NCBI RefSeq assembly: GCF_000346465.2 | Contig: NC_034011.1 | Location: forward strand, 5,236,440-5,300,439 | Source of the DNA: Prunus persica | Taxonomy: Eukaryota > Streptophyta > Magnoliopsida > Rosales > Rosaceae | DNA length: 64,000 nucleotides | Reading direction: 5' to 3' | Shown: piece after piece, positions 357 through 63,290 of the stretch | How positions within the stretch are numbered: the first letter of the stretch is position 1 | How the letters are laid out: every line of letters starts with the position of its first letter | Notes under the pieces: generated by a model | Seen by the model: only the letters and a program-made list of their open reading frames with translations | Databases searched by the model: none | Told to the model about the DNA's origin: nothing | Position numbers and translations under genes: made by a program

Positions 357-424
357 GTATAGCCTTGTAGCTATACGAATTAAATATTTGAATATATTTC
401 AACGGTATAGCCGCGCGGCTATAC
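357..424. repeat. Two palindromic dyads with duplicated AT-rich flank
   Basis: The second dyad (405-424) is the perfect palindrome GTATAGCCGCGCGGCTATAC. The first, 48 bp upstream, is a degenerate version with the same outer arms. Each is preceded by nearly the same AT-rich segment (about 324-349 and 378-403). The dyad is the same as those in the large array at 47.6-55.2 kb, but the flanks here are different. Confidence 0.85.
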
Positions 425-16947: not shown

Positions 16948-18634
16948 GGATTTAAAAGAAGGAAAAAAAAAAAACACTAACTAAAATTGACCAATTGTGA
17001 TTGCACTGGCACCGCCTTGTTCCCTAAGCAAGCAAAAGACCAGTGCAGAAGAATTGCCGAGCAAATCTCCTTTGGCATAAAGCACACTACAAGAATAATG
17101 CAAGGCTTTGCTCACTGAGGCCCAGCCGGAAGCATTTATAATTGTAAGTGGCCACATGCCAGAGGAGACTTTGCCCTGTAATTGATCTAACTGCACAACC
17201 AAAGTTGAAAGTTGCAGAGAGATGCACCGGAGAGACCGTTATTTATGCTAACCCAGAGGAAGCATATCCTAAGGATCCTAAGGAACAATGCTTTCGTTTG
17301 TGTGTTGAAAAGTACACCTTTATCCATAAATCCCGTCCCACTTTTTCATGGTACAAAATTTTAGCTGTACAGACTACTTCATGAAGCTGATTTTAAAAAA
17401 ATGTGACTGTAATTAATCAACTTCTCAGTGCTAATCAGTACCATAAATGAGAAATTAATTCTCTAATTCGTTGTTGACTCGGGTTCTCGCTTAATTACAT
17501 CAACTAATGAGTCACTGTGGTTTAACAAACATGCAGTTTTACTAGCTTGCTAGGACGTGAAACAATATAAGCCAGTCATTGTTGAAAATCTTGAAAAGAA
17601 AATATGGGAAGCATTCTAAATATATAAGAAGGAAGATTCAGAGCATGTTCTCAATCTATCTTTTTCTTCTACTTGGTAATGTCACTTTCATTGCTTTCAG
17701 GACCAGCCAAATGGACCTAACAAAAGTTGATTTTGTTAGAGAAAACACTCGAGCCTGCATTCATGAATTCAACTCATGTGATGGACACACACACACACAT
17801 ATATATATATATAGTTCTATTATTTATTTGCAGCAACATACTGATTCTTTTATTTTTATTTTCCATAAAATTATATTATGATCACCAAGATCTAAATTTG
17901 ACAGTTGCATCTAAATTTCGGGACAAATCTATTAGCTAGGAAGTTTAGACTCCTCAACGTGTACGAGTTTTTAGGGTTTTATGTGGTTTTGGCAGAAACA
18001 TGTCATGATTTTAGAAAGCTGCAGCAGGATATCCCCTAGAACTCAAGTATATCCTCTAAATTGTTAAAATTAATGCACACTTGTGTCTTGAATAATATAG
18101 AATAATCTAGAAAAATTGAGAGAAGTTGACAAGTTAAAGTCGGCTCTACACTAGAAACATCCTACTAATTATATAATGTATTGTAACTAGATAATTCTAG
18201 ATTTATAGGACAACTAGTGGCTGAAAACACTCGAAAGTCGGTTACTGTGCAACAACCGACTTGACTAGTTATTTGCCAACTTAGAGGGTTGGTTTAGCAA
18301 CTCTATAAATATGCAAGCAGCCCACTTATGTAATCAAGCAAGAAAAGCTGAAAACTACCAGCTGCCCTGTATCCAACTAAGTCTCTAAAGCTTTGTAACT
18401 TTCCTCCATTCAAATATAATTACCTCGCTACTCTTTCAAAAAGTTTTCTATTCCACATCAAGCTATTGTCCTAAACACTAAACTACCAACCATTCTCTAA
18501 ACCTCTTCTCCCTTAAACTAAACCCTAAATTAAAGGCTGTCTTTAATTTGACTCCCTTTTAACCAATCCTTGTGTAACATTTACACCAAAACACTAAATA
18601 TGAATTGGACATCCAACATATATATATATATATA
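16948..18634. other. Gene-poor stretch with weak exon-like pieces
   Basis: A plus-strand frame at about 17190-17310 (RCTGETVIYANPEEAYPKDP, then QCFRLCVEKY) has amino-acid composition like a real exon but no match I recognise. A short frame starting at 17644 (MFSIYLFLLLGNVTF) looks signal-peptide-like. They cannot be joined into a convincing gene. The rest is AT-rich with CA/TA microsatellites near 17786-17813. Confidence 0.35.
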
Positions 18635-19816: not shown

Positions 19817-19836
19817 GTATAGCCGTGCGGCTATAC
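19817..19836. repeat. Single palindromic dyad
   Basis: GTATAGCCGTGCGGCTATAC: both arms intact, with central TG. This is an isolated copy, showing the dyad can occur outside arrays. Confidence 0.85.
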
Positions 19837-38201: not shown

Positions 38202-38724
38202 CGTCTCTCATTTGAGACATTCTCATTCTTTTATTTCTTCTCAAATTTAGAGGGTGCTGTGAGTATGGGAATTATGTTGCTCCGGCCAAATGATATTATA
38301 GATGCCAAGTTTGAGATTTTCTTGACGAAGTGTAGGAAACGTTTTTGATTGATTGAAAGGTTATTAGTTTAAAAATGAAGCTGAATGCTTTTTTCGTGTG
38401 ATAATGTCAAATGGTTAAGCGCATTTATTCATCTACCGATGTATTGTTTTCGATTCCCTCCTCTCATTATCGATTTATAAATTTTTTAAAAAAAAAGTTG
38501 TTTTACTAAACACTAAGTGCAGAATTTGTATCTCCAAATAACAGCCTGACTCAACATGACCTCTGTACTCCTTAGGCACCTCCGCTCTTGTCCAACTGTA
38601 GCTATTCAAATATAGCCCGGTTTTATTAATGTTTCTTAAAAATAGTATAGCTATGCAGCTATATTCAATTTTTAAAAAAAAAAAAAATGGTATAGCCGAG
38701 CGATGTGTGTATATATATATATAC
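38202..38724. other. Glycosyltransferase 3' region, then two degenerate dyads
   Basis: The 3' UTR probably ends within the first 200 bp. At 38644-38664 and 38694-38706 are decayed copies of the GTATAGCC dyad separated by a poly-A spacer, followed by a TA microsatellite. No gene is present. Confidence 0.5.
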
Positions 38725-38888
38725 ACAGTCCCCTTCTATTGAGGGATCCCTCAAATAATTTTATTTGAGGGGCGCCCTTTAGGGCACCCTACCATTTTTT
38801 TCTCAATGATCCAAACCATCTATTTTTTAGGTCTTCATTTATAGATCATCCTTACAAAAAATTAGACAAATCGGAAACCGTTTCGACA
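38725..38888 (+). mobile_element. Truncated MITE, joined to pararetrovirus sequence
   Basis: It matches the first ~165 bp of the complete MITE at 18635-19029 almost base for base and then stops abruptly at TTTCGACAT. The next base begins pararetrovirus coding sequence. The right half of the MITE is absent on the far side. Confidence 0.85.
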
Positions 38889-40707
38889 TTCAGGAGCCGA
38901 TTTAAATTGTATTCAGGAAGGCCTAGTTCCAACCCAATTTTATAAGAAATCAAGAGAAGTTTTAGGAACAACGTCTGGTAAAGCATTAAAATTAAATTAT
39001 GAATTACCCAAAGCCCATGTATGCCAAAATAACATATGTTTTAAAACGTCTTTTGTTTTAATTCAAAATATCACGGATGAAGTCATTTTAGGTTTACCCT
39101 TTATCTCTTTACTTTACCCTTTCCAAGTAGAATATGATGGCGTTACTTCCAGTCACCTAGGTGAAAGAGTTAAATTTGAGTTTTTAACCAAACCAGAATT
39201 ACACAATCTTAGGTTTTTACAGAAGTCAGTAGTTTCCAAATCAGTTAGATTAATTCAAAATAAGACAAAACAAGTTAATTTTCTCAAGCAAGAAATTAAG
39301 TTTAAACGTGTAGAACAACAGTTAGTAGATCAATCTTTACAGTCTCAAATAATTGAATTTGAAGAAAAATTAAAAAATGAAGTTTGTTCTGATTTACCTA
39401 ATGCTTTTTGGCACTGAAAGCAACATGTCGTTACTTTACCTTACGTTAAAACTTTTAGTGAAAAGAATATTCCCACTAAAGCCCGTCCAATCCAGATGAG
39501 TCAAGAGTTAATGGAATTATGTAAACAGGAAGTCACCGAGTTAGTCCAGAAAAGAATAGTTAGAAAAAGTAAATCACCCTGGTCATGTCCAGCTTTTTAT
39601 GTTCAGAAAAATGCAGAGTTAGAAAGAGGAGCCCCTCGTTTAGTAATCAATTATAAGCCCCTTAATGCAGTACTTGAATGGATTAGGTATCCAATCCCAA
39701 ATAAAAGAGATTTAGTCAATTAGTTAGAGAAAGCGGTTATTTTTAGCAAATTCGATATGAAAAGTGGTTTCTGGCAAATTCAAATTAAAGAATCAGATAG
39801 ATATAAGACTGCCTTCGTAACCCCTTTTGGTTATTATGAATGGAATGTCATGCCCTTTGGATTAAAAAATGCTCCTAGTGAAATTTTTAATCAATATAGT
39901 CAATTTTCCATAGTTTACATTGATGATGTCTTAATTTTTTCAGAGTCAATTGAGCAACATTGGAAGCATTTAAATAAATTCCTTCAGATAATCAAGCAAA
40001 ACGGTTTAGTTCTTTCAGCTAAGAAAATTAAGTTATTTCAAACCAATGTTAGATTTTTAGGATTTAATATTAATCAATCTCAGATAAGCCCAATTGATCG
40101 AGTTATCCACTTTGCTGATAAGTTCCCAGATCAAATTTTAGATAAGAATCAATTACAGAGATTTTTAGGATCATTGAATTATATTTCTGATTTTTATAAA
40201 AATTTAAGAAAATTATGCAAGCCCCTGTTTGATTGTCTCCAGAGCAATCTTCCTGCTTGGACTCCTGGTCATACAGAAATAGTTAAACAAATTAAAGTTC
40301 ATGTCAAGTCTCTTCCATGCCTTGGTATTCCTTCAGCCAATTCTTTGAAAATTGTCGAGACAGATGCTTCTGAGTCTGGTTATGGTGGTATCCTAAAGCA
40401 AAGAGTTTCCCTTGGGTCACCAGAGCAAATTGTCCGATTTCGTTCCGGAGTTTGGAGTCAATCTCAAATTAATTATAGTACTATTAAAAAAGAAATTTTA
40501 TCTATAGTATTATACATCAGTAAATTTCAAGATGATCTTTTAAATCAAATTTTTTTAGTTAGAGTTGATTGCAAATCTGCAAAGCATGTTTTAGAAAAAG
40601 ATGTTAAAAATATAGCTAGTAAACAGATTTTTGCACTATGGCAAGCCATTCTGAGTGTTTTTTATTTTGAGATTGAATATTTGAGAGGTAGTGAAAATAG
40701 TATACCT
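38889..40707 (+). pseudogene. Endogenous pararetrovirus (Caulimoviridae) PR-RT-RH fragment
   Basis: One plus-strand frame covers three polyprotein domains in order. The aspartic protease starts directly at its active-site loop (flap-side motif VILGLPFISLLYPF). The reverse transcriptase has MKSGFWQIQI, the catalytic IVYIDDVLIFS and FLGSLNYISDF. RNase H begins ETDASESGYGGIL and ends near LRGSENS. Caulimovirid affinity is judged from these blocks; a Ty3-type retroelement is the alternative. Breaks are an in-frame TGA (39415-39417), an in-frame TAG (39721-39723), a small in-frame gap just before the YIDD motif, and truncation at both ends. Movement and coat domains are absent. It is a dead fossil copy. 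Confidence 0.85.
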
Positions 40708-41208
40708 ATATATATATATATATAGGATCCTTTTTTTCTTTTAAATATTTTCCCCGATTTTCGTTTATCGATAAGAGTAATTTATAGCATTATCCATTAC
40801 TATTTTGTTAGTGCCCCAGTCTCTATTATCCCCTTTTTATTTTTCACTTTTCTAGAGTCATTACTTGTATAAAGAATTTAACACTTTCTCGTTCAATAAT
40901 CTATTATACATGTATGTACTTATTTTTTAATAATACATCTGTGTTCTGTACACGACTTAAAGGCTCGGTAAAACTTTAGCTTTTTAAAAAGCCGCGCGGC
41001 TATACTTATTTTGACATGTGGCTGCCTATTCGCTAGGCGGGTTGTCTTTAAAAAATATATATAGAATAGCCGCGCGGCTATACTTAGTTTTTTTCTGAAT
41101 TTTTTTTAAAAAATAGTACAGCCCCACTGCTATATTGGGTTCTATTAATGTTTCTTAAAAATAGTATAGTCAGGCGGCTATATATATATATTTAGTGTAG
41201 ACTTACAG

Positions 41209-41290
41209 AGGCGCAAGGAGGTGCACCTGCACCTCTTCTCGTCGGAAAAAAGCCATGGAGGTGCTATATTTGCCTCTCTGCGCTAGCGCC
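41209..41290 (-). mobile_element. Fragment of a hAT-like element
   Basis: GAGGCGCAAGGAGGTGCACC and the following bases match, in reverse complement, the right end of the hAT-like element at 5231-5726 (GGTGCAGCTGCACCTCCTTG). A hAT-type end (GGATCCACCACTG) also occurs at about 42280. Confidence 0.6.
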
Positions 41291-41639
41291 CAAGGTTTTA
41301 AAGCGTTATGTAAGGGGTCTGGAAATCACCTCAAGGAGCCAATCATTTGGCAAGTTACACAAACTAGCATGGTTCAAGGCAATGCAAGGTGCACGATGTG
41401 TTGCAGAGGTGCCTCTGATGGAAGCTGAGGCGATGGTTGACGAAGGAAGAAGATAACTCTATACCCTAATTTTCTTTTTCACAAACGACGTCGTCCTTTA
41501 GTTTTGTTTAATGAAACGCAGGTTTCAATGAAAGTTTTTTTAAAAGTCAAACTCTACCGTTTTGGTGAAATAAAATTCCTTTTCCTACCCAACTTTGACA
41601 AAATTAATAAATAAACAATAAAATTTAGCTAAAAACACT

Positions 41640-42015
41640 AGAAAGCTATTTTAGGAGCTCTCTATAAAATTTCAACTCCAACCATACTCCCTAGTTTAAA
41701 GAGTCATAAATGTTTTTAATAATTTTTAATTCAATTTTTAAATAAAGTGTAGACACCAAAGTAATAATAAAAATAGTTGGCATTAAATAAATCCTCAAAA
41801 TAATATTAAATATAGAAGTATTTAATTATAAGGAGTCACTAGGAGTCCTTTCTCTCTCCTCAAATTTAGGAGCTCCTAGAAGTCTCCTTATTTTAGGAGC
41901 TCCTAGAAGTCTCCTTATTTTAGGAGCTGGATAGAGAGTATGGTTGAAGATGGGTATTCCTCCCTAAATTTTAGCTAAGGAGGTGATTTAGGAAGTCCAT
42001 TGTGGATGTTGCCCA
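41640..42015. mobile_element. Rearranged Tourist-like MITE
   Basis: It shares with 22282-24484 the AGCTATTTTAGGAGCTCT and CAACTCCAACCATACTCC runs. It also shares the AGCTAAAATTTAG block, here on the opposite strand near the right end. AGGAGCTCCTAGAAGTCTCC is tandemly duplicated inside. The left TIR is missing. Confidence 0.5.
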
Positions 42016-42949
42016 ACTAGTTAAAACTGAAATGTTGAGTCTTGACCAATCTATTAAAACCTGTCACAGCTTTTCTACAAACCTTCCCTAGCTTATTCCT
42101 ATTTCTTTAGCAAGTCAGCCTAGATAAAAATAGTTTTAAGATTGATTATTTAGCTTCAATTACTTGATTATAGCTATTGTAATATATATTTCATTATAAT
42201 AATCATTTTAATATGTTCTTTAATTTTTTCTTAATTCTGTCCTATCAAAATCTTATTGCCCCTCCCTTGAAAACTTCATGGATCCACCACTGTATATATT
42301 TTGAGGATCCTTTTTTTCTTTTCAATTTTTTTGATAAGAGTAGTTTAGAGCATTATCCATTACTATTTTGCTTTTTTATTTTTTTACTTTTCCAGAGTTA
42401 TTACCCGTATAAAGAATTTACCACTTTCACGTTCAATAATCTATTATACATGTACGTACCTATTTTTCAATAATACATCCGTGTTCTATACAAGGCTTAA
42501 ATGCTCAGTAAAATTCATGGTTTTTAAAAAGCAAACGTACAATACTCGTACATATTTTTTTATGAATACACGTACTTTTTACAAAATTTTCAATAAGACA
42601 CAAAATTCACATATTATACAAATAATTCTCACATATTATTGAATAAAAATAATATATATTTTAAAATATTATATAGTGGCCGAACTTTTTAAGTTGTAAT
42701 TTGCCAAAATTTTGCCGAATAAAACATGTATATATATATATTTTTTTTATGTCTAGTATTTTATAAATAGTATAGCAGCTCGGCTATATTCGGTTTTTCC
42801 TGATACTTTTAAAAAATAATATCGTTGAATGGCTATACTCGGTTTTATTAATGTTTCTTTGAAAAGAAGTCTACAGTTATGTTCAAGCATATGTATATTC
42901 ATCCATTGACAACTCACAAGGAAGATAATAAGACAAGATAAGATGATAC

Positions 42950-43814
42950 CTCTGCCAAGGAGGGAGAGTGAGCATGGTGTATGCAAGTTTGATCTTACTG
43001 ACAACCCCTCCCAGTGATTTAAAGCTTGCAGCAGCCTGCCTAACTGCCTTCGATACAGTTGGGTGCTGCCAGGCCCATTCAAACTGCAAAGTTCCCAAGG
43101 GAACATTAGAAAGAAGGTCCCAAATGGCCAATTAATATACATCCTAAAATAATAATAAAAAACCTTCAATCCCACTTAGTCAAATCTTAATCAGGCCCAA
43201 ATTGATCCTAGAATTGGTGCCTACTCAAGACGGGTCCCAATCAAGCTGGAAATATCCTCAAATGACAAATAATTATCGGAATATAATTCTCAAGAAATTT
43301 GTCCCAATCAATCAAATTAAAAACACAAACAGATCATACAGAGCAATCAATAGACAAGTTAATTGTAAAGAGAACAAAAGAAAGAAATTAAGAGACCTGG
43401 TAAACATAGATGCACAAGACCATCTCCAAGCACCTTGCGCTATTGCACCATTTTGCTGTCTTATACGACGCCGTGGGTTCACTGTGAATCTGTATCAGAA
43501 TCACCCAAATAAGCACAAACAAAGGCACAGAGTTCAAGTGGGCTCTCTTATTACTCCAAGCTCTACAAGAAAGTCTCAAACTTTAAAGAAGTTCAGATCG
43601 AAAATGTTCAAATCAAGATTGATCTTATTATTCTCAACAGATTGGGAATTTGAAAAAATAAAATAAAAAGAATTAGGGGAAGATGGAAGGTACCAAATAT
43701 AGGTGTGGCCTTTGTAGCGGGGGCTGCGAGAGCTCAACAGCATGCGAAGAATCGTCCTTCTTCTGCATCTTCCTCCTCCGTGATTAGGATTTCTGGGATT
43801 TCTGCTTCTTCCAT
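42950..43814 (-). pseudogene. SLX1-like GIY-YIG endonuclease pseudogene
   Basis: Three exon remnants are in order: 43814-43694 (EEGRFFAC, then after a frameshift SPRYKGHTYI), 43481-43397 (VNPRRRIRQQNGAIAQGAW, then in another frame EMVLCIY) and about 43120-42950 (LQFEWAWQHPTVSKAVRQAA, then KIKLAYTMLTLPPWQ). These are the GIY-YIG nuclease domain of SLX1, the catalytic subunit of the SLX1-SLX4 Holliday-junction resolvase. Breaks are a frameshift after FFAC, a frame change with loss of a few codons after GAW, and absence of the C-terminal zinc-binding domain, beyond which dyad-bearing repeat sequence begins. The upstream leader looks intact, so this is probably a truncated duplicate. Confidence 0.8.
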
Positions 43815-43998
43815 CTCTCTTTTCAGGCGTATCTTATTAAAATGCAGTCAATCCAATTCGACCGTTGGAATATATTAACCCTTATTTCACTGTTTGAACT
43901 CTACGCCTCAGATTCCGTTTTCTACGGTCAGGATCTTGCGCTTGTACTTGGGGAGTGACAAAGTTTTTGCCACGTGGCCGGTTGCTTCTTGATCAACC

Positions 43999-44440
43999 AA
44001 AAAAAAGGTATAGCTGGTAGTATAGCCACGCGGCTATACTTAATTTGACACGTGCCCACCTAATCGAGGGAAGGTGACTTTTTTATATATAAATAGTATA
44101 GCCGCGCCTATACTCGGATTTTTCCTTATTTTTTTAAAAAATGGTATAGTCAAAAGGCTATACTCAATTTTATTTATTATTATAAAAATAGTATAGCCGC
44201 GCCGCTATACTTTTGTTTGACATGTGGCAGCCTATTCACTAGGCGGTTTCTCTTCTTTATTTTTCTTTAAAATAGTATAGCTGCCAGGCTATACTCGGTT
44301 TTATTAATATTTCTTAAAAATAGTATAGCCGGTCGGCTATACGTGGTTGTACTAATGTTTCTTAAAAACAGTATCGCCGCGCGCCTATACTCAATTATTT
44401 TCTAATGTTTTTTAATAGTATAGCCGATCGGCTATATGCG
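43999..44440. repeat. Cluster of eight or more GTATAGCC dyads
   Basis: Copies start at about 44018, 44098, 44144, 44191, 44274, 44321, 44371 and 44416, spaced about 45-80 bp. The spacers include a repeated TTTTATTAATGTTTCTTAAAA. Several have one arm mutated or two bases lost. TTTGACA(C/T)GTG follows the copies at 44018 and 44191, as beside dyads elsewhere. Confidence 0.85.
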
Positions 44441-44965
44441 TTATATATTTTTTGAGGATCCTTTTTTTTCTTTTCAATTTTTTCCCCAATTTTCATTTAT
44501 CAATAAGAGTAGTTTATAGCATTATCCATTACTATTTTGCCAGTACCCGAGTCTCTATTATCCCATTTTCATTTTTTACTTTTTCAGAGTTAATACTCGT
44601 ATAAAGAATTTACCGCTTTCACGTTTAATAATCTATTATACATGTGTTCTGTACACGTTTTAAAGCTTCGTTAAAAATTCAAGCTTTTAAAAAAGCAAAT
44701 GTATAATACTTGTATTGTACATATATGTATGTATTTTTCATATTTAATACACATATTTTAATAAGATACCCAAAATTCACATATTATACAAATAATTCTC
44801 ACATATTATTGAAAAAACATAATATATCTTAAAATTTTAAATATATTATACTAAAATATTATATAGTTGTAAAACATATTATACAAATAATTCTCACTTT
44901 TAAGTTGTAATTTGCCAAAAAAATTTCGAATAAAACACATACATATTTTTTCATGTTTAGTATTT

Positions 44966-45790
44966 TTATAAATAGTATAGCCACCCGGCTATACTATATT
45001 TCTTTATAAATTTTTTAAAATAGTATAGCCGAGCGGTTATACTCTTTATATTTATTTTTTAGGATCCTTTTTTTCCTTAAAATTTTTTCCTGATTTTCGT
45101 TTATCGATAAGAGTAGTTTAGAGCATTATCCATTACTATTTTGTCAATACCTGAGTCTCTATTGTCCCCTTTTTATTTTTTACTTTTTCAAAGTTATTAC
45201 CCATATAAAGAATTTATCACTTTCACATTAAATAGTCTATTATACACATATGTATGTATTTTTCAATAATACATCAGTGTTCTATACACATCTTCAAGAC
45301 TTGATAAATTTCAAGCTTTTTAAAAACAAACATACAATACTTGTATTGTATATGTACGTATGTATTTTTCATGTTTAATACACATTTTTTTAAAAAAATT
45401 TCAATACGATACATAAAATTCATATATTATACAAATAATTCTCACATATAATATATTTTAAAATTTTAAGTAAAGTATATAGTGGCCGAACTTTTAAGTT
45501 CTAATTTGGTAAAAAAATTCCGAATAAAACACGTACATATTTTTTCCCGTATAGTATTTAATAAATAGTTTAGCCGCATGGCAATACTCAGTTTTATAAT
45601 GTTCCTTAAAAAATAGTATAGCCGGGCGGTTTTATTAATATATCTTAAAATTTTAAATAAATTATATTAAAATATTATATAGTGACCGAACTTTTAAGTT
45701 GTAATTTGCCAAAAAATTTCTGAATAAAACAGTATGTATTTTTTTGCATTTAGTATATTATAAATAGTATAGTCGCGCGGTTATCCTCCT
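44966..45790. repeat. Further degenerate dyads in GGATCC-type repeat
   Basis: Dyads lie at about 44972 (central CC), 45023 (one arm changed), 45567, 45618 and 45768. They become more degenerate toward the right and are interspersed with the same AT-rich blocks as upstream. Confidence 0.7.
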
Positions 45791-46475
45791 TGACGTGATG
45801 CCAGTTGGTAGAATGAAGAGAACAAAAGACTGAAAGAGCAAAGAGATGCGTCCTTCGCAATTGGTAGTGTATCCTCCTTGGACTATAATTAAGTTTGAAA
45901 TTATGTGTCCTATGAATCCTATGCAGGCGTTCACTTTGTCACAAAAGCTCAACTTGGAAAAGTTTCAAAATTGGACGGCGGTGGTTTAAAATATATTAAG
46001 CAGTATTCGCTTAGTGTTTTTTTTTAGGACCTCTCTTATTGATAAGGATGATAACAGTCACAAACTACATAGATGTTAGGACTCGAGCCCAGAACCTTTC
46101 GTGAGGAGAGCATTTGTTTCAAAATTTTGCTCAGTTAAATTTTAATTAGTGTTTAATTTTCTATTTGTATCTTAAGAAGAAAACAAATGAATTATGTGAT
46201 TATATTTTTATGCTTAGCATCTGTAAAATTGATGCATCCGTAGGTACATTACTATTATTATTATTAAAGTAAGAATAACGTTAGTACAATTTTTGAGCTA
46301 CATAATTTAATCTTTATATGCCCACAACCAATAATGTACATATGTACATGTTCATACCCTATTAATAATATGCCAACATGAAGGAAGAAAATCAATTCAG
46401 TCAAATAATTGTGCTTAATGAAAATTAGATATCATTAAAAAATGAGAATCTAATTTTCTAATAATAATTATAACA

Positions 46476-46530
46476 TGAAGGAAGTTGAGGTTTCACCCCA
46501 AAACCAATTGGCAATGGGGGTAGTAGTCTA
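46476..46530 (-). mobile_element. TRIM LTR fragment
   Basis: TGAAGGAAGTTGAGGTTTCA and CCAATTGGCAATGGGGGTAG match one end of the TRIM repeats at 13580-13942. The match is lost after about 55 bp. Confidence 0.7.
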
Positions 46531-46630
46531 AGCACGTTCTTCATAAATATATGCTCATTAAACTTGTGTCACAGATGCAAATCCTATCATTGCACCAGTG
46601 GAGGCAACAAAATGACAGTTTACATAGTGT

Positions 46631-46965
46631 GAGATCCTCCAGATCACCAACAATTTAAAGAGGATTCTTGGCGAAGGTGGATTTGGAACAGTTTATCATG
46701 GATGCATAGACAAAACTCAAGTAGCTGTCAAGATGCTTTCACCGTCTTCAGTTCAAGGGCTTCAACAATTTCATTCTGAGGCACGTTTGTTAAATTACCA
46801 GAGGCTTGGATTTTTTTTAGCACTAGAAATCTAACTTCTGCAGAAACATTCCTTAATCTCCACATTATTTTTTATTTTCTGTGGATGCAGTGCAGACAGC
46901 ACTCCAGTTGTCTTCACTTGGGAAGGTAGACTTCAAATAGCTACAGATGCTGCACAAGGTGTGAA
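46631..46965 (+). pseudogene. Receptor-like kinase fragment
   Basis: The first piece (46631 to about 46790) encodes EILQITNNLKRILGEGGFGT, then VYHG and VAVKMLS: the glycine-rich loop and VAVK lysine of a plant receptor-like kinase. After an intron-like gap, a second piece (from about 46891, after GATGCAG) encodes FTWEGRLQIATDAAQG, the helix before the catalytic loop. Catalytic and activation segments and the whole ectodomain are missing. The pattern resembles malectin/LRR receptor kinases. It is a decayed gene fragment. Confidence 0.75.
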
Positions 46966-47589
46966 ACTAATAAATTATCTTGTACTCCTTTTTAGCTAAC
47001 ATCTCCTCAGGCCTTTGCCTAATGCTTCTTATGGAACACAAATGCCGACAGATACCTTGGCACTTGCCGTGCGGTATCACACTGGTCCAACAGCACTTAA
47101 TTATACACTACATAGGTGAGTGCAAAATCTCCCTGTTCATGATCGATAGATTAACTAATAACTAAGGACTGATGAAATATATATTTCTCCTGATTATCTA
47201 CGTTTTGTCTATGTCTATGGTTTGGATGTCATGGACGAAAATACAACTCGGCTGTACTAGTTTAGAGACCATTGCAACAATTAAGTCCAAAATATATTAA
47301 TATTAATATATAAGAGTATTGTACCTGCAGCTAATATATGGTGTTGCGAATTTCCATTTGCCACTTACCCATAAACAAGTGCCACAGCAACCATCAACGC
47401 AATACCCAATTAGAGAAACCACGTTCGTACGGTGAACTCTTATCAACAATCTCGCATGTTTGAGTTGAAATTAGTCCCACATTGGAACACTAGAATTCCT
47501 TGGAGGTCTTTATAAGACTTACTCTTGCAAACAGAGTAGTTCAGCCCGGTCAGGCAAGTGGCCCAATTGAGTGGCCTGTGGTCATATGA
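46966..47589. other. Intergenic; LTR-like sequence before the array
   Basis: No coding is seen. From about 47466 a TAGTCCCACATTGGAACACT sequence followed by TTTATAAGACTTACTC resembles the start and TATA region of plant LTRs, suggesting the array may sit in a retroelement. No second LTR was found. Confidence 0.4.
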
Positions 47590-50500
47590 CCTTTAGGCCA
47601 ATGGTTAATTAATATATTTAATTAATCAAAAGATTGGCCTTGGGCCTTGGGGCTCTTGGGGTCGGTGATTTAAATTAAACCCGATTAGTTAATTAATTAT
47701 TTTCAAATAATGTTTTGAATTTCATCCTTCTATTTGTTGTTTAAAATATAATTACTAATGAAAGTAATAAGAAAAGGCTAACATACTACTTAATTACATA
47801 TATTAAATTAAAGAAGTGGGCCAAAAAACAAAAGTTAAGACACTAATTTTATCTTTTTTAATTTGTTTTTTTAAAAAAAATTTCAAAGATTAAATTTTAA
47901 TTTTTAAAAGTATAGCCGCACGGCTATACAACGCCCAGGGCCCAGGTGCCACGTGTCAAATGAGTAAAGCCGAGCGGCTATACTATTTTTGGCAAAAAAA
48001 GGAAGATGAGTACAGCCGCGCGGCTGTACTATTTCTGAAAAAATTTCAAAAAGAATCTGGTATAGCCGGGCGGCTATACTGTATATGCATGCACACAGAC
48101 CCGCCCAGTGCTGATGCGCCACGCGTCAAAGGAGTAGAGCCGGTTTTTGGTTTTAGAAAAGTATAGCCGCGCGGCTATACTATTTTGAAAATCAATTCAG
48201 GGGAAAACTGGGTATAGCCGAACGGCTATACTATTTTGTTTTTAGTGTATATCATTTTTTTTTTATTCAATAATATGTGAGAATTATGTGTTCAATGGTT
48301 AATTAATACATATTCAATTAATCAAAAGGTTGGCCTTGGGCCTTTGGGCTCTTGGGGTCGGTGATTTAAATTAAACCCGATTAGTTAATTAATTATTTTC
48401 AAATAATGTTTTGAATTTCATCCTTCTATTTGTTGTTTAAAATATAATTACTAATGAAAGTAATAAGAAAAGGCTAACATACTACTTAATTACATATATT
48501 AAATTAAAGAAGTGGGCCAAAAAACAAAAGTTAAGACACTAATTTTATCTTTTTTAATTTGTTTTTTTAAAAAAAATTTCAAAGATTAAATTTTAATTTT
48601 TAAAAGTATAGCCGCACGGCTATACAACGCCCAGGGCCCAGGTGCCACGTGTCAAATGAGTAAAGCCGAGCGGCTATACTATTTTTGGCAAAAAAAGGAA
48701 GATGAGTACAGCCGCGCGGCTGTACTATTTCTGAAAAAATTTCAAAAAGAATCTGGTATAGCCGGGCGGCTATACTGTATATGCATGCACACAGACCCGC
48801 CCAGTGCTGATGCGCCACGCGTCAAAGGAGTAGAGCCGGTTTTTGGTTTTAGAAAAGTATAGCCGCGCGGCTATACTATTTTGAAAATCAATTCAGGGGA
48901 AAACTGGGTATAGCCGAACGGCTATACTATTTTGTTTTTAGTGTATATCATTTTTTTTTTATTCAATAATATGTGAGAATTATGTGTTCAATGGTTAATT
49001 AATACATATTCAATTAATCAAAAGGTTGGCCTTGGGCCTTTGGGCTCTTGGGGTCGGTGATTTAATTAAACCCGATTAGGTAATTAATATTTCAAATAAT
49101 GTTTGAATTTCATCCTTCTATTTGTTGTTTAAAATATAATTACTAATGAAAGTAATAAGAAAAGGCTAACATACTACTTAATTACATATATTAAATTAAA
49201 GAAGTGGGCCAAAAAACAAAAGTTAAGACACTAATTTTATCTTTTTTAATTTGTTTTTTTAAAAAAAATTTCAAAGATTAAATTTTAATTTTTAAAAGTA
49301 TAGCCGCACGGCTATAAAACGCCCAGGGCCCAGGTGCCACGTGTCAAATGAGTAAAGCCGAGCGGCTATACTATTTTTGGCAAAAAAAGGAAGATGAGTA
49401 CAGCCGCGCGGCTGTACTATTTCTGAAAAAATTTCAAAAAGAATCTGGTATAGCCGGGCGGCTATACTGTATATGCATGCACACAGACCCGCCCAGTGTT
49501 TATACACCACGCGTCAAGGAGTAGAGCCGGTTTTTGGTTTTAAAAAAGTATAGCCGCGCGGCTATACTATTTTGAAAATCAATTCAGGGGAAAACTGGGT
49601 ATAGCCGAACGGCTATACTATTTTGTTTTTAGTGTATATCATTTTTTTTTTATTCAATAATATGTGAGAATTATGTGTTCAATGGTTAATTAATACATAT
49701 TCAATTAATCAAAAGGTTGGCCTTGGGCCTTTGGGCTCTTGGGGTCGGTGATTTAAATTAAACCCGATTAGTTAATTAATTATTTTCAAATAATGTTTTG
49801 AATTTCATCCTTCTATTTGTTGTTTAAAATATAATTACTAATGAAAGTAATAAGAAAAGGCTAACATACTACTTAATTACATATATTAAATTAAAGAAGT
49901 GGGCCAAAAAACAAAAGTTAAGACACTAATTTTATCTTTTTTAATTTGTTTTTTTAAAAAAAATTTCAAAGATTAAATTTTAATTTTTAAAAGTATAGCC
50001 GCACGGCTATACAACGCCCAGGGCCCAGGTGCCACGTGTCAAATGAGTAAAGCCGAGCGGCTATACTATTTTTGGCAAAAAAAGGAAGATGAGTACAGCC
50101 GCGCGGCTGTACTATTTCTGAAAAAATTTCAAAAAGAATCTGGTATAGCCGGGCGGCTATACTGTATATGCATGCACACAGACCCGCCCAGTGCTGATGC
50201 GCCACGCGTCAAAGGAGTAGAGCCGGTTTTTGGTTTTAGAAAAGTATAGCCGCGCGGCTATACTATTTTGAAAATCAATTCAGGGGAAAACTGGGTATAG
50301 CCGAACGGCTATACTATTTTGTTTTTAGTGTATATCATTTTTTTTTTATTCAATAATATGTGAGAATTATGTGTTCAATGGTTAATTAATACATATTCAA
50401 TTAATCAAAAGGTTGGCCTTGGGCCTTTGGGCTCTTGGGGTCGGTGATTTAAATTAAACCCGATTAGTTAATTAATTATTTTCAAATAATGTTTTGAATT

Positions 50501-53500
50501 TCATCCTTCTATTTGTTGTTTAAAATATAATTACTAATGAAAGTAATAAGAAAAGGCTAACATACTACTTAATTACATATATTAAATTAAAGAAGTGGGC
50601 CAAAAAACAAAAGTTAAGACACTAATTTTATCTTTTTTAATTTGTTTTTTTAAAAAAAATTTCAAAGATTAAATTTTAATTTTTAAAAGTATAGCCGCAC
50701 GGCTATACAACGCCCAGGGCCCAGGTGCCACGTGTCAAATGAGTAAAGCCGAGCGGCTATACTATTTTTGGCAAAAAAAGGAAGATAAGTACAGCCGCGC
50801 GGCTGTACTATTTCTGAAAAAATTTCAAAAAGAATCTGGTATAGCCGGGCGGCTATACTGTATATGCATGCACACAGACCCGCCCAGTGCTGATGCGCCA
50901 CGCGTCAAAGGAGTAGAGCCGGTTTTTGGTTTTAGAAAAGTATAGCCGCGCGGCTATACTATTTTGAAAATCAATTCAGGGGAAAACTGGGTATAGCCGA
51001 ACGGCTATACTATTTTGTTTTTAGTGTATATCATTTTTTTTTTATTCAATAATATGTGAGAATTATGTGTTCAATGGTTAATTAATACATATTCAATTAA
51101 TCAAAAGGTTGGCCTTGGGCCTTTGGGCTCTTGGGGTCGGTGATTTAAATTAAACCCGATTAGTTAATTAATTATTTTCAAATAATGTTTTGAATTTCAT
51201 CCTTCTATTTGTTGTTTAAAATATAATTACTAATGAAAGTAATAAGAAAAGGCTAACATACTACTTAATTACATATATTAAATTGAAGAAGTGGGCCAAA
51301 AAACAAAAGTTAAGACACTAATTTTATCTTTTTTAATTTGTTTTTTTAAAAAAAATTTCAAAGATTAAATTTTAATTTTTAAAAGTATAGCCGCACGGCT
51401 ATACAACGCCCAGGGCCCAGGTGCCACGTGTCAAATGCGTAAAGCCGAGCGGCTATACTATTTTTGGCAAAAAAAGGAAGATGAGTACAGCCGCGCGGCT
51501 GTACTATTTCTGAAAAAATTTCAAAAAGAATCTGGTATAGCCGGGCGGCTATACTGTATATGCATGCACACAGACCCGCCCAGTGCTGATGCGCCACGCG
51601 TCAAAGGAGTAGAGCCGGTTTTTTGGTTTTTAGAAAAGTATAGCCGCGCGGCTATACTATTTTGAAAATCAATTCAGGGGAAAACTGGGTATAGCCGAAC
51701 GGCTATACTATTTTGTTTTTAGTGTATATCATTTTTTTTTTATTCAATAATATGTGAGAATTATGTGTTCAATGGTTAATTAATACATATTCAATTAATC
51801 AAAAGGTTGGCCTTGGGCCTTTGGGCTCTTGGGGTCGGTGATTTAAATTAAACCCGATTAGTTAATTAATTATTTTCAAATAATGTTTTGAATTTCATCC
51901 TTCTATTTGTTGTTTAAAATATAATTACTAATGAAAGTAATAAGAAAAGGCTAACATACTACTTAATTACATATATTAAATTAAAGAAGTGGGCCAAAAA
52001 ACAAAAGTTAAGACACTAATTTTATCTTTTTTAATTTGTTTTTTTAAAAAAAATTTCAAAGATTAAATTTTAATTTTTAAAAGTATAGCCGCACGGCTAT
52101 AAAACGCCCAGGGCCCAGGTGCCACGTGTCAAATGAGTAAAGCCGAGCGGCTATACTATTTTTGGCAAAAAAAGGAAGATGAGTACAGCCGCGCGGCTGT
52201 ACTATTTCTGAAAAAATTTCAAAAAGAATCTGGTATAGCCGGGCGGCTATACTGTATATGCATGCACACAGACCCGCCCAGTGCTGATGCGCCACGCGTC
52301 AAAGGAGTAGAGCCGGTTTTTGGTTTTAGAAAAGTATAGCCGCGCGGCTATACTATTTTGAAAATCAATTCAGGGGAAAACTGGGTATAGCCGAACGGCT
52401 ATACTATTTTGTTTTTAGTGTATATCATTTTTTTTTTTATTCAATAATATGTGAGAATTATGTGTTCAATGGTTAATTAATACATATTCAATTAATCAAA
52501 AGGTTGGCCTTGGGCCTTTGGGCTCTTGGGGTCGGTGATTTAAATTAAACCCGATTAGTTAATTAATTATTTTCAAATAATGTTTTGAATTTCATCCTTC
52601 TATTTGTTGTTTAAAATATAATTACTAATGAAAGTAATAAGAAAAGGCTAACATACTACTTAATTACATATATTAAATTAAAGAAGTGGGCCAAAAAACA
52701 AAAGTTAAGACACTAATTTTATCTTTTTTAATTTGTTTTTTTAAAAAAAATTTCAAAGATTAAATTTTAATTTTTAAAAGTATAGCCGCACGGCTATAAA
52801 ACGCCCAGGGCCCAGGTGCCACGTGTCAAATGCGTAAAGCCGAGCGGCTATACTATTTTTGGCAAAAAAAGGAAGATGAGTACAGCCGCGCGGCTGTACT
52901 ATTTCTGAAAAAATTTCAAAAAGAATCTGGTATAGCCGGGCGGCTATACTGTATATGCATGCACACAGACCCGCCCAGTGCTGATGCGCCACGCGTCAAA
53001 GGAGTAGAGCCGGTTTTTGGTTTGAAAAAAGTATAGCCGCGCGGCTATACTATTTTGAAAATCAATTCAGGGGAAAACTGGGTATAGCCGAACGGCTATA
53101 CTATTTTGTTTTTAGTGTATATCATTTTTTTTTATTCAATAATATGTGAGAATTAAGTGTTCAATGGTTAATTAATACATATTCAATTAATCAAAAGGTT
53201 GGCCTTGGGCCTTTGGGCTCTTGGGGTCGGTGATTTAAATTAAACCCGATTAGTTAATTAATTATTTTCAAATAATGTTTTGAATTTCATCATTTTATTT
53301 GTTGTGTAAAATATAATTACTAATGAAAGTAACAAGAAAAGGCTAACATACTACTTAATTACATATATTAAATTAAAGAAGTGGGCCAAAAAACAAAAGT
53401 TAAGACACTAATTTTATCTTTTTTAATTTGTTTTTTTAAAAAAAATTTCAAGATTAAATTTTAATTTTTAAAAGTATAGCCGCCCGGCTATACACGCCCA

Positions 53501-55190
53501 GGGCCCAGTGCCACGTGTCAATGAGTAAAGCCGAGCGGCTATACTATTTTTGGCAAAAAAAAGGAAGATGAGTACAGCCGCGCGGCTGTACTATTTCTGA
53601 AAAAATTTCAAAAAGAATCTGGTATAGCCGGGCGGCTATACTGTACATGCATGCACACAGACCCGCCCAGTGCTGATGCGCCACGCGTCAAAGGAGTAGA
53701 GCCGGTTTTTGGTTTTAAAAACGTATAGCCGCGCGGCTATACTATTTTGAAAATCAATTCAGGGGAAAACTGGGTATAGCCGGACGGCTATACTATTTTG
53801 TTTTTAGTGTATATCATTTTTTTTTATTCAATAATATGTGAGAATTATGTGTTCAATGGTTAATTAATACATATTCAATTAATCAAAAGGTTGGCCTTGG
53901 GCCTTTGGGCTTTTGGGGTCGGTGATTTAAATTAAACCCGATTAGTTAATTAATTATTTTCAAATAATGTTTTGAATTTCATCCTTCTATTTGTTGTTTA
54001 AAATATAATTACTAATGAAAGTAATAAGAAAAGGCTAACATGCTACTTAATTACATATATTAAATTAAATAAGTGGGCCAAAAAACAAAAGTTAAGGCAC
54101 TAATTTTATCTTTTTTAATTTGTTTTTTTTAAAAAAATTTCAAAGATTAAATTTTAATTTTTAAAAGTATAGCCGCACGGCTATACAGCGCCCAGGGCCC
54201 AGGTGCCACGTGTCAAATGCGTAAAGCTATACTATTTTTGGCCCAAAAAAAAAAGGAAGATGAGTACAGCCGTGCGGCTGTACTATTTCTGAAAAAATTT
54301 CAAACAGAATCTGGTATAGCCGGGCGGCTATACTGTATATGCATGCACACAGACCCGCCCAGTGCTGATGCGCCACGTGTGAAAGGAGTAGAGCCGGTTT
54401 TTGGTTTTAAAAACGTATAGCCGCGCGGCTATACGATTTTGAAAATCAATTAAGGGGAAAACTGGATATAGCCGATCGGCTATACTATTTTGTTTTTAGT
54501 ATATATCATTTTTTATTCAATAATATGTGAGAATTATGTGTTCAATGGTTAATTAATACATATTCAATTAATCAAAAGGTTGGCCTTGGGCATTTGGGCT
54601 CTTGGGATCTGTGATTTAAATTAAACCCAATTTGTTAATCAATTATTTTTAAATAATGTTTTGAATTTCATTCTTCTATTTGCTGTTTAAAATATAATTA
54701 CTAATGAAAGTAATAAGAAAAGGCTAACATATTACTTAATTACATATATTAAATTAAAGAAGTGGGCCAAAAAACAAAAGTTAAGAAACTATTTTTATAT
54801 TTTTATTTTTTTTTTTCAAAAAAAAATTTCCCAGATTAAATTTTAATTTTTAAAAGTATAGACGCACGGCTATACAGCGCCCAGGGCCCAGGTGCCACGT
54901 GTCAAATGCGTAAAGCTATACTATTTTTGGCCCAAAAAAAAGGAAGATGAGTACAGCCGCGTGGCTATACTGTATATGTATGTATACGGACCCAGCCAGC
55001 GCTTACGCGCCACGCTTCGAACGAGTAGAACTGTTTTTTTTTTTTTTAAACAGTATAGCTGCACGGCTATACGATTTTTAAAAGCAATTAATTGGAAAAC
55101 TGAGTATTGCTGGGCGGTTATACTATTTTATTTATTTATTTATAGTATATATCATTTTTATTCAATAATATGTGAGAATTATGTTTGATG
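47590..55190. repeat. Tandem array, 11 units of ~695 bp, palindrome-bearing
   Basis: The first dyad of each unit starts at 47910, 48606, 49298, 49993, 50689, 51385, 52083, 52780, 53474, 54167 and 54856 (steps 689-698). Most of each unit is AT-rich. A ~300-bp part carries six dyads: central CA; a variant with one altered arm; GTACAGCCGCGCGGCTGTAC; central GG; the perfect CG form; and central AA. A lone half-site also occurs. Each unit also has a GCCACGTGTC G-box-like site and ATGCATGCA. Most of units 1-8 are nearly identical; units 9 to 11 diverge progressively and the last is truncated. Frames of 68-76 codons recur but are by-products of the dyads. Confidence 0.95.
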
Positions 55191-58722: not shown

Positions 58723-58870
58723 AGACCACTAATGATATGTCGGTTGTATCATTAAAGACTTGCTTGGAGAAAACCTAGTAAGGTAGAAAACTGATGGAAA
58801 GAAGAGTACAACAATCTGTATAGCATACTTCTGGATGCTCCCCCTGATTAATATCTCCCCCTGATGTCTT

Positions 58871-59048
58871 CATGACTATCTTTTGGATTGAGAATCTTTC
58901 GGAGTGAGTGGATGATGTAGCCACCAACAATTCATATAGTAAATATATTTCCAGTGAATCATGACTATCTTTTGGATTGAGAATCTTTCGGAGTGAGTGG
59001 ATGATGTAGCCACCAACAATTCATATAGTAAATATATTTCCAGTGAGC
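58871..59048. repeat. Two-copy tandem repeat, period 89 bp
   Basis: CATGACTATCTTTTGGATTG at 58871 recurs at 58960, with the whole 89-bp unit nearly identical. It lies inside the LTR element. Confidence 0.9.
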
Positions 59049-62116: not shown

Positions 62117-62958
62117 TGTAATTTTATAGATTTTACAGGGCCTGCACCTTCATTGCAGGTGGAAAAAATCTATCTGTTGTATGTTTCTGTAATAATAATT
62201 GTGCATATTCTTAAACTTGCACCTGTGGTTTTTACGTCTTTTCAAAATGACGGTTTGGAACCTTGTGCCTTATAGGTTCAAATAACCACATTGTCTCTCC
62301 CAAATTGCATGGTAGCCCGGAACTTTTGGCCTGGGCACAAACTCAGAATTTATTTGCCCTTTTCAAATGGACATGAAATATGAATTGAGTAAAAGTCACG
62401 ATAATATCGCAATATAGTAGTGAAGAGCATTAACTACTATATACCCACAACTTCAAGTTCAGGATCTCTCATATATTTGGATCCATGGGCTTCCGGCCCA
62501 GGTATAATAAAATATGTGGGGAGCCTCAATTCATTATTTGAGGTTTATATTGATATTATCCATTTCGCGGTGTATTCTTAACAACCGGAATTCACAAAAT
62601 ATATTTCTTCCTTGAGGTGTCGATTATAACAGAATCGAACTTTATTAAATTCATCATCTTCTTATGCCAAAGAAATATGTGGTGTACCACAATTTACAAT
62701 AATACCTCAAGGGTTGTCCATTTAATTGTTGGAACTTCAGGTTCTCAATACTCTTAAATTTTGAACTTCAGGCCAAAGCCACATATTCTCATGGTATGGA
62801 CATTTTTACAATTTTCTGTACATATTCCGGGACTTCAAGTCCTTACATAATTGTCCATATTTTGAGGAACTTCTGGCATCTCATTTAATTTCTCATCCAT
62901 GAGTTTAAGGAACTGCAGGTTCCCTTTTGTATATAGTGACGGTTTACCCAAAATGGTT

Positions 62959-63290
62959 CATATTTATGCATACGTCACTATTCATGTGAATAGTACTGTT
63001 CATCAAGTCATGAATACATATCTATTCATGTGTACAGTACATCTGCCAGTACAGTTATCATCCATGGCTCATATTTATGCATACGTCACTATTCATGTGA
63101 ATAGTACTGTTCATCAAGTCATGAATACATATCTATTCATGTGTACAGTACATCTGCCAGTACAGTTATCATCCATGGCTCATATTTATGCATACGTCAC
63201 TATTCATGTGAATAGTCTGTTCATCAAGTCATGAATACATATCTATTCATGTGTACAGTACATCTGCCAGTACAGTTATCATCCATGTGT
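62959..63290. repeat. Three-copy tandem repeat, period 111 bp
   Basis: CATATTTATGCATACGTCAC starts at 62959, 63070 and 63181, and the units are almost identical; the third has a small deletion. CTATTCATGTGAATAG inside each unit is a short palindrome. The open frame across it exists because 111 is a multiple of three. Confidence 0.92.

Follow-up and report, generated by a model that had tools for sequence, protein, structure and literature searches.

Why does one 20-bp palindrome recur dozens of times in a stretch of plant DNA, with both of its 9-bp arms kept and the two bases between them left free? We addressed this question in a window of Prunus persica DNA (the whole stretch analyzed, 64 kb long; NC_034011.1, positions 5,236,440 to 5,300,439), in which the palindrome, hereafter the dyad, is found mostly in a tandem array. 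An initial annotation had noticed a matched change in the two arms of one dyad per array unit and had taken it to point to a constraint on pairing, or else to a dimeric binding site. We found that the dyad looks more like a protein-binding site than like a structure kept by matched mutations.

Distribution of the dyad

The window was searched for matches to GTATAGCCGNNCGGCTATAC with at most three mismatches, and 100 shuffled sequences served as the control. This search returned 82 dyads, 39 of them exact, against a shuffle mean of 0; 63 lie at or beyond position 47,600, and the remaining 19 are further left (357 to 45,767). Across the genome (227.5 Mb, 192 contigs), exact dyads numbered 4,142, compared with 0 for the reversed-pattern control and approximately 0.003 expected under uniform base use. 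The recurrent family first noticed in the window is thus confirmed, and it is far bigger than the window alone shows. The exact dyad had no match in viral contigs, and its single match in prokaryote genomes was at chance level (uniform base use would give approximately 3.7 in 257 Gb). A search of the open-access literature, at listing level, found no description of the dyad; many of the string matches were primers.

We reduced 449 matches in 34 loci to 289 non-redundant dyads. Their consensus is AAATA-GTATAGCCG-NN-CGGCTATAC-T, with 1.2–1.8 bits in the arms and 0.2 bits in the centre, the flank values being inflated, since the flanks were used to orient each dyad.

Constraint on arms, spacer and centre

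Of the 4,188 exact arm pairs separated by 0–6 bp, 4,142 had a spacer of exactly 2 bp, whereas one arm substitution alone (T>C at position 4) accounted for 1,151 copies. A search that fixes the arms partly builds in the pattern of kept arms and a free centre, and we therefore retested this pattern on units aligned through their linkers. The window unit at 48,412–49,110 was aligned to its best match at each of 15 other loci, one of which (L056) was dropped for lack of an alignment of 300 bp. At the 14 loci used, substitutions were present at 76 of 1,235 sites in the arms (6.2%), 520 of 2,761 in the near linkers (18.8%), 419 of 3,358 in the far linkers (12.5%), and 59 of 132 in the centre (44.7%). 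The rate relative to near linkers was 0.33 for the arms (0.28–0.38) and 2.37 for the centre (1.98–2.74), the ranges being from a bootstrap over loci, some of which are related. The fixed arms and free 2-bp centre of the initial annotation thus hold in linker-aligned units, and all 16 centre dinucleotides were present among 256 distinct dyads. Slow arms and a fixed spacer, together with little coupling between the arms (see Paired arm changes), fit the two half-sites of a dimer, and the little coupling implies that each half-site is held to the consensus independently. For the fast centre, dyad-to-dyad exchange is a plain candidate.

The start-to-start step between dyads was 40–54 bp in 122 of the 247 linkers. 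A CACGTG-like core, which we take to be a G-box, was present in 7 of the 136 linkers with a step below 60 bp, compared with 76 of the 111 longer linkers. CACGTG itself occurred 109 times in the 45.4 kb around dyads (86 distinct 36-mers, with array copies counted) and 23 times in the other 131.9 kb of these loci; near dyads, it lies in the context TTGACACGTGGC. An AT-rich body and the module AATGCAACTAGGAGGGTCCTT also recur beside dyads, and the module was found at 175 + 134 genome places at no more than one mismatch. In addition, a second palindromic motif, CCGACGAA-NN-TTCGTCGG, was found at 508 places with spacers of 0–6, against 8 for the control (e.g., L045:1197 and C1:4413157), and this second dyad accompanies the first in L045, L070, and L071.

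The rival explanation that survives best is a functionless, minisatellite-like repeat, in which conversion or template switching homogenises the arms while exchanges and CpG decay scramble the centre. We hold this possible, although on the unlikely side. Exchange between dyads predicts slow arms together with a centre that outpaces the linkers; among the 276 pairs that differ in the centre, CG/CA is the most frequent difference (52 pairs); and the arrays come in several unit lengths. However, such a repeat accounts poorly for the strict 2-bp spacer throughout the genome, for the G-box-like cores kept together with the dyads in the longer linkers, and for isolated exact dyads such as that at window position 19,817.

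A putative dimeric binding site

We prefer, with a probability of roughly 0.55, to regard the dyads as putative sites for a sequence-specific dimer, lying in non-coding, tandem-prone repeat DNA with G-boxes. The geometry of a dimeric site with a 2-bp spacer, one of the options raised initially, agrees with both the spacer counts and the slow arms. A sequence-specific protein would bind the dyad as a dimer, with one 9-bp half-site per arm and a fixed 2-bp gap between them. The dyads would alternate with G-boxes in that part of an abundant repeat family which is non-coding and prone to tandem duplication; their clusters would grow by tandem duplication in units of 48 bp, approximately 100 bp, and 650–2000 bp, and would spread with repeat DNA, long terminal repeat (LTR) pieces, and segmental duplications. 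We infer the binding and the dimer state, and the protein may be either a host transcription factor or a mobile-element protein (a transposase, TnpA-like or VANC-like).

Several points weigh against a dimeric binding site. Pfam annotation of all 71 open reading frames (ORFs) of at least 110 amino acids at the fetched loci revealed no binding protein or transposase, including no VANC-like or MULE transposase gene, although no genome-wide transposase search was made. The matches returned were to genes of the host (PPR, kinase, malectin-like, GST, mTERF, and others) and to retroelement integrase in L044 (below the cut-off) and L057. Selection on the arms leaves the centre rate, 2.4 times that of the near linkers, unexplained, and conversion among dyads could mimic slow arms. 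Moreover, the loci were drawn mostly from array, LTR, and module matches, plus one chromosome end, and several are related to one another through duplication; because of this choice and kinship, the fetched loci are a non-random, non-independent sample of the 4,142 exact dyads.

At L041:1786-7988, a MADS-box (SRF-TF) gene has dyad clusters on both sides, with their linkers in the same orientation. For a peptide from an open frame running through one L041 dyad cluster, no relative was found.

Arrays and their possible genomic carriers

The window array (47,599..55,184; here and below, no strand is assigned to arrays, dyads, or dyad regions) consists of approximately 10.9 units of about 695 bp, a full unit holding six dyads and two G-box-like cores, and its right edge is set at 55,184, where internal similarity stops. 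Its 11 unit anchors run from 47,599 to 54,543 at a spacing of about 695 bp; 10 units are 92–100% identical to the query unit, and one further partial match is 72% identical. The 63 dyads of the array lie at 47,910..55,123 and include 10 copies of GTACAGCCGNNCGGCTGTAC. One G-box-like core, TTGACACGTGGC, identified from the sequence and the enrichment count, lies between unit dyads 1 and 2 (47,948..47,959, minus strand), and a degenerate one, GCCACGCGTCAA, at 48,118-48,129 (plus strand). The head-to-tail order of similar units is that of a satellite. Other unit lengths were found elsewhere, namely 648 bp (L035), ~870 bp (L036), and ~807 bp (C39), and the spacing of the paired variant gave ~877, ~1,612, and ~2,064 bp. 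In oyster, Helentron arrays, which are dispersed satellites borne by transposable elements, are said to be scattered by mobile elements in a similar manner (PMC7492417); we liken them to the dyad arrays by description.

The sequences flanking the array recur at other loci. A receptor-kinase-like gene segment (46,203..47,306, plus strand; the window stretch was read by eye) is common to the window and C7:736k, and the stretch from 47,035 to 47,600 is, whole or nearly whole, common to C5:3960k, C3:21540k, and C3:3977k. Arrays seem to travel with segmental duplications, because kinase or malectin-like ORFs adjoin them at several loci (L035, L042, L054, and L059). Directly adjoining the window array is the 5' part of an LTR (47,455..47,600, plus strand), presumably copia-like, judging from a gag motif; the copia Pfam match for LTR-linked sequence was sub-threshold (E 0.035). 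The query containing this LTR piece had 40 genome matches, and in 5 of 12 further places with such an LTR start (L060–L071), dyads start 140–460 bp downstream.

Two loci have definable ends. At L045, a 2.7-kb dyad array interrupts PPR-gene-like sequence, and the paralogue L048/L050 (PPR by Pfam) provides the empty site, with ACT, a possible 3-bp target duplication as in CACTA elements, on both sides at this one locus; the left joint and an internal unit have GCACT in common, as in break repair. At L040, a dyad block of ~400 bp lies between two copies of a 230–255-bp host duplication that are 82–84% alike in their aligned parts (L040:2478-3368), and this block runs from the right half of one dyad to the left half of another. 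The terminal inverted repeats and fixed ends of a miniature inverted-repeat transposable element (MITE) were absent from both loci. Two loci do not define a spreading mechanism.

These ends bear on the explanation that two terminal inverted repeats abut in each dyad, or that the dyad is a crossover site with the cut in its 2-bp centre, comparable to IS30-like junctions and serine-recombinase sites. A centre faster than either arms or linkers would suit such a site, as would the half-dyads that bound the inserted block of L040, but L045 has no inverted ends besides its shared GCACT joint, and the outermost dyads of L039 are whole. Inversion of the centre through the palindrome was not raised either, as reverse-complement centres made up 8 of 407 homologous pairs versus 3.6% of random pairs. 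We consider this explanation improbable.

We rate slightly lower still the explanation that the dyads are CACTA subterminal repeats, or part of an endogenous pararetrovirus, a polymerase fragment of which stops ~260 bp short of them. Subterminal regions of CACTA elements are described as carrying reiterated direct and inverted motifs (PMC4219821). However, at the 64 flanks of 32 clusters from the fetched loci, TAGTG in the element-end direction was found in 4 flanks within 100 bp and in 15 within 300 bp, versus 2 and 11 flanks for the opposite direction, indicating no enrichment of CACTA ends bounding dyad clusters; a stricter end pattern was absent at these flanks, the nearest being ~215 bp from one of the L041 clusters. 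The window also holds a caulimovirid-like endogenous pararetrovirus fragment (38,866-40,722; reverse transcriptase and RNase H by Pfam in 39,724-40,722), located next to TA repeats. It adjoins the window dyads at 40,986, but among the 124 polymerase matches listed (121 of 1,538 candidates scored), none was on C1 below 2.65 Mb, where ~90 dyads are listed, and the matches listed gave no sign of a link between polymerase and dyads beyond this single window neighbour.

Separately, two CACTA-type element ends lie ~14 kb apart inside the receptor-kinase/array segment at C7:722393-736750. We set this CACTA-type element (C7:722-736k) aside as a separate insertion.

Paired arm changes

The matched variant GTACAGCCGNNCGGCTGTAC occurs 10 times in the window, once per full array unit as first described (48,010, 48,706, 49,398, 50,093, 50,789, 51,485, 52,183, 52,880, 53,572, and 54,264). 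It represents one inherited state, because its neighbour in 9 units, GTAAAGCCGAGCGGCTATAC, has an uncompensated change at the identical arm position, and because GTACAGCCGCGTGGCTATAC, at 54,951 in the last, partial unit, is changed in its left arm only.

We compared paired with single changes at two arm positions genome-wide and at all nine in the samples. At position 4 (T>C), 4,142 dyads were unchanged, 599 were changed in the left arm only, 552 in the right arm only, and 93 in both, compared with 79.8 expected if the arms were independent (odds ratio 1.17, Poisson P 0.08; array copies are not independent). Without the 10 copies of the window array, 83 were changed in both arms (P 0.38). Outside the window, the paired variant is therefore about as common as single changes would make it by coinciding at random. 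At position 8 (C>T), 103 and 107 single-arm changes were accompanied by 6 in both arms (2.7 expected, P 0.054), a weak excess that rests on six dyads. Among the 289 non-redundant dyads, matched double changes numbered 15 versus 8.9 ± 2.9 in shuffles (P 0.04), and unmatched double changes 15 versus 11.1 (P 0.15); for dyads with no more than three arm changes, matched doubles numbered 7 versus 4.9 (P 0.22). As the matched excess is small and unmatched doubles are also raised, these counts point to general decay, with matched changes at most slightly in excess.

Compensatory arm changes were thus not clearly in excess of independent ones, as they should be for a hairpin; the small excesses are what shared decay can yield and do not demonstrate a pairing constraint. 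The proposal that the paired change signals such a constraint was not upheld, given the counts at position 4 and the uncompensated neighbours. The initial annotation had named two outcomes that would speak against it: paired changes no more frequent than expected, which is close to what we found, and confinement of the paired variant to one array, which does not apply, since the variant occurs on C1, C2, C3, and C4. An argument from CpG decay was tried and dropped, because the genome counts (1,151 for T>C at position 4 and 210 for C>T at position 8) disagree with those in the sample (34 and 40), the first genome count being inflated by arrays.

Selection for pairing, whereby the DNA or its transcript must fold as a hairpin or cruciform, is the least probable explanation of all, for although single strands fold at −9.2, −8.6, and −6.2 kcal/mol versus shuffle means of −2.7, −2.6, and −1.4 and paired changes are slightly in excess (P 0.04 to 0.08), unmatched doubles rise along with these small excesses, the spacer is fixed in length where a loop could vary, and an Rfam scan found no family at the dyads.

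Other features of the window

To the left of the array lies an older, decayed dyad region (38,645..45,786), with dyads at 38,645, 40,986-41,183, 42,770-42,838, and 44,020-45,786, partly ~48 bp apart, which alternate with an AT-rich body. One such body, at 44,444..44,960 (no strand assigned), lies between dyad groups and has relatives at 40,701-40,990, 42,293-42,730, and 45,056-45,550, as well as inverted ones in L001 and L002. The isolated exact dyad at 19,817..19,836 follows the module TAATGCAACTAGGAG, which was also found before dyads at other loci, and two further isolated dyads, one decayed and one exact, lie in a short direct repeat at 357..424. Near-perfect tandem repeats occur at 62,953-63,287 (111 bp × 3) and 58,870-59,046 (89 bp × 2). 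The sole Rfam match was a miR399 precursor at 17,047-17,188 (minus strand).

Comparison with known systems

In layout, the dyads resemble the motifs of VANDAL/VANC systems or the subterminal motifs of CACTA elements. Arabidopsis VANC proteins are reported to bind short motifs, which the formation of tandem repeats has multiplied in the non-coding parts of VANDAL elements and which are present in an unrelated repeat as well (PMC5735166, PMC10398659). Both systems place a short motif in non-coding tandem repeats that are quickly gained and lost; a protein binds the motif in the case of VANC and is predicted to do so for the dyad. The VANC motifs, however, are 8–9 bp long, whereas the dyad is a 20-bp palindrome with a 2-bp centre and G-boxes. 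CACTA elements such as soybean TgmR* are described as having, near the element ends, many direct and inverted motif copies, able to form stem-loops, with TNPA-like binding (PMC4219821); unlike these, dyad clusters have no enrichment of CACTA termini, and inverted ends are absent from L045, where an empty site is available. The resemblance to VANDAL and CACTA is one of layout, as neither an enrichment of CACTA ends nor a coding partner was found at the fetched loci.

Other systems are less similar. SIRC of Arabidopsis thaliana consist of short repeats interrupted by diverse sequence, for which a MITE origin has been suggested by the authors (PMC10342631), but by description alone they are direct repeats, and the abstract gives no fixed palindrome. 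The endogenous florendoviruses of Prunus persica (PMC4241990) are comparable in that a caulimovirid-like polymerase fragment adjoins one dyad group; the matches listed show no wider association with dyads, and the available portion of that paper mentions no such palindromes. A review of Prunus transposable elements describes MITE-borne bZIP60 and PIF3 sites and cites Morata et al. on MITE-borne motifs, and the words palindrom-, tandem, subterminal, and satellite are absent from its text (PMC13359793).

Implications

With 6% substitutions in the arms and 45% in the centre, the dyad has a clear footprint. Motif arrays in the non-coding DNA of transposable elements are known targets of element-encoded anti-silencing and transposition proteins, but few such arrays have been worked out. 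In a fruit-tree-like genome, more than 4,000 exact copies that are rigidly spaced and partnered by G-boxes offer a ready bait for the putative protein of the dyad. More tentatively, and as a rather doubtful extension of the dimeric site, the dyad might be recognised or cut by an undescribed selfish or domesticated protein that has seeded over 4,000 of its own dimer sites through LTR pieces, satellites, and gene flanks, together with G-boxes, creating a fast-rewiring enhancer or anti-silencing network. If this were true, the faster change of the centre than of the linkers would show where the DNA is acted on by the protein or by exchange between dyads. The dyad system permits testing whether repeats spread ready-made regulatory sites.

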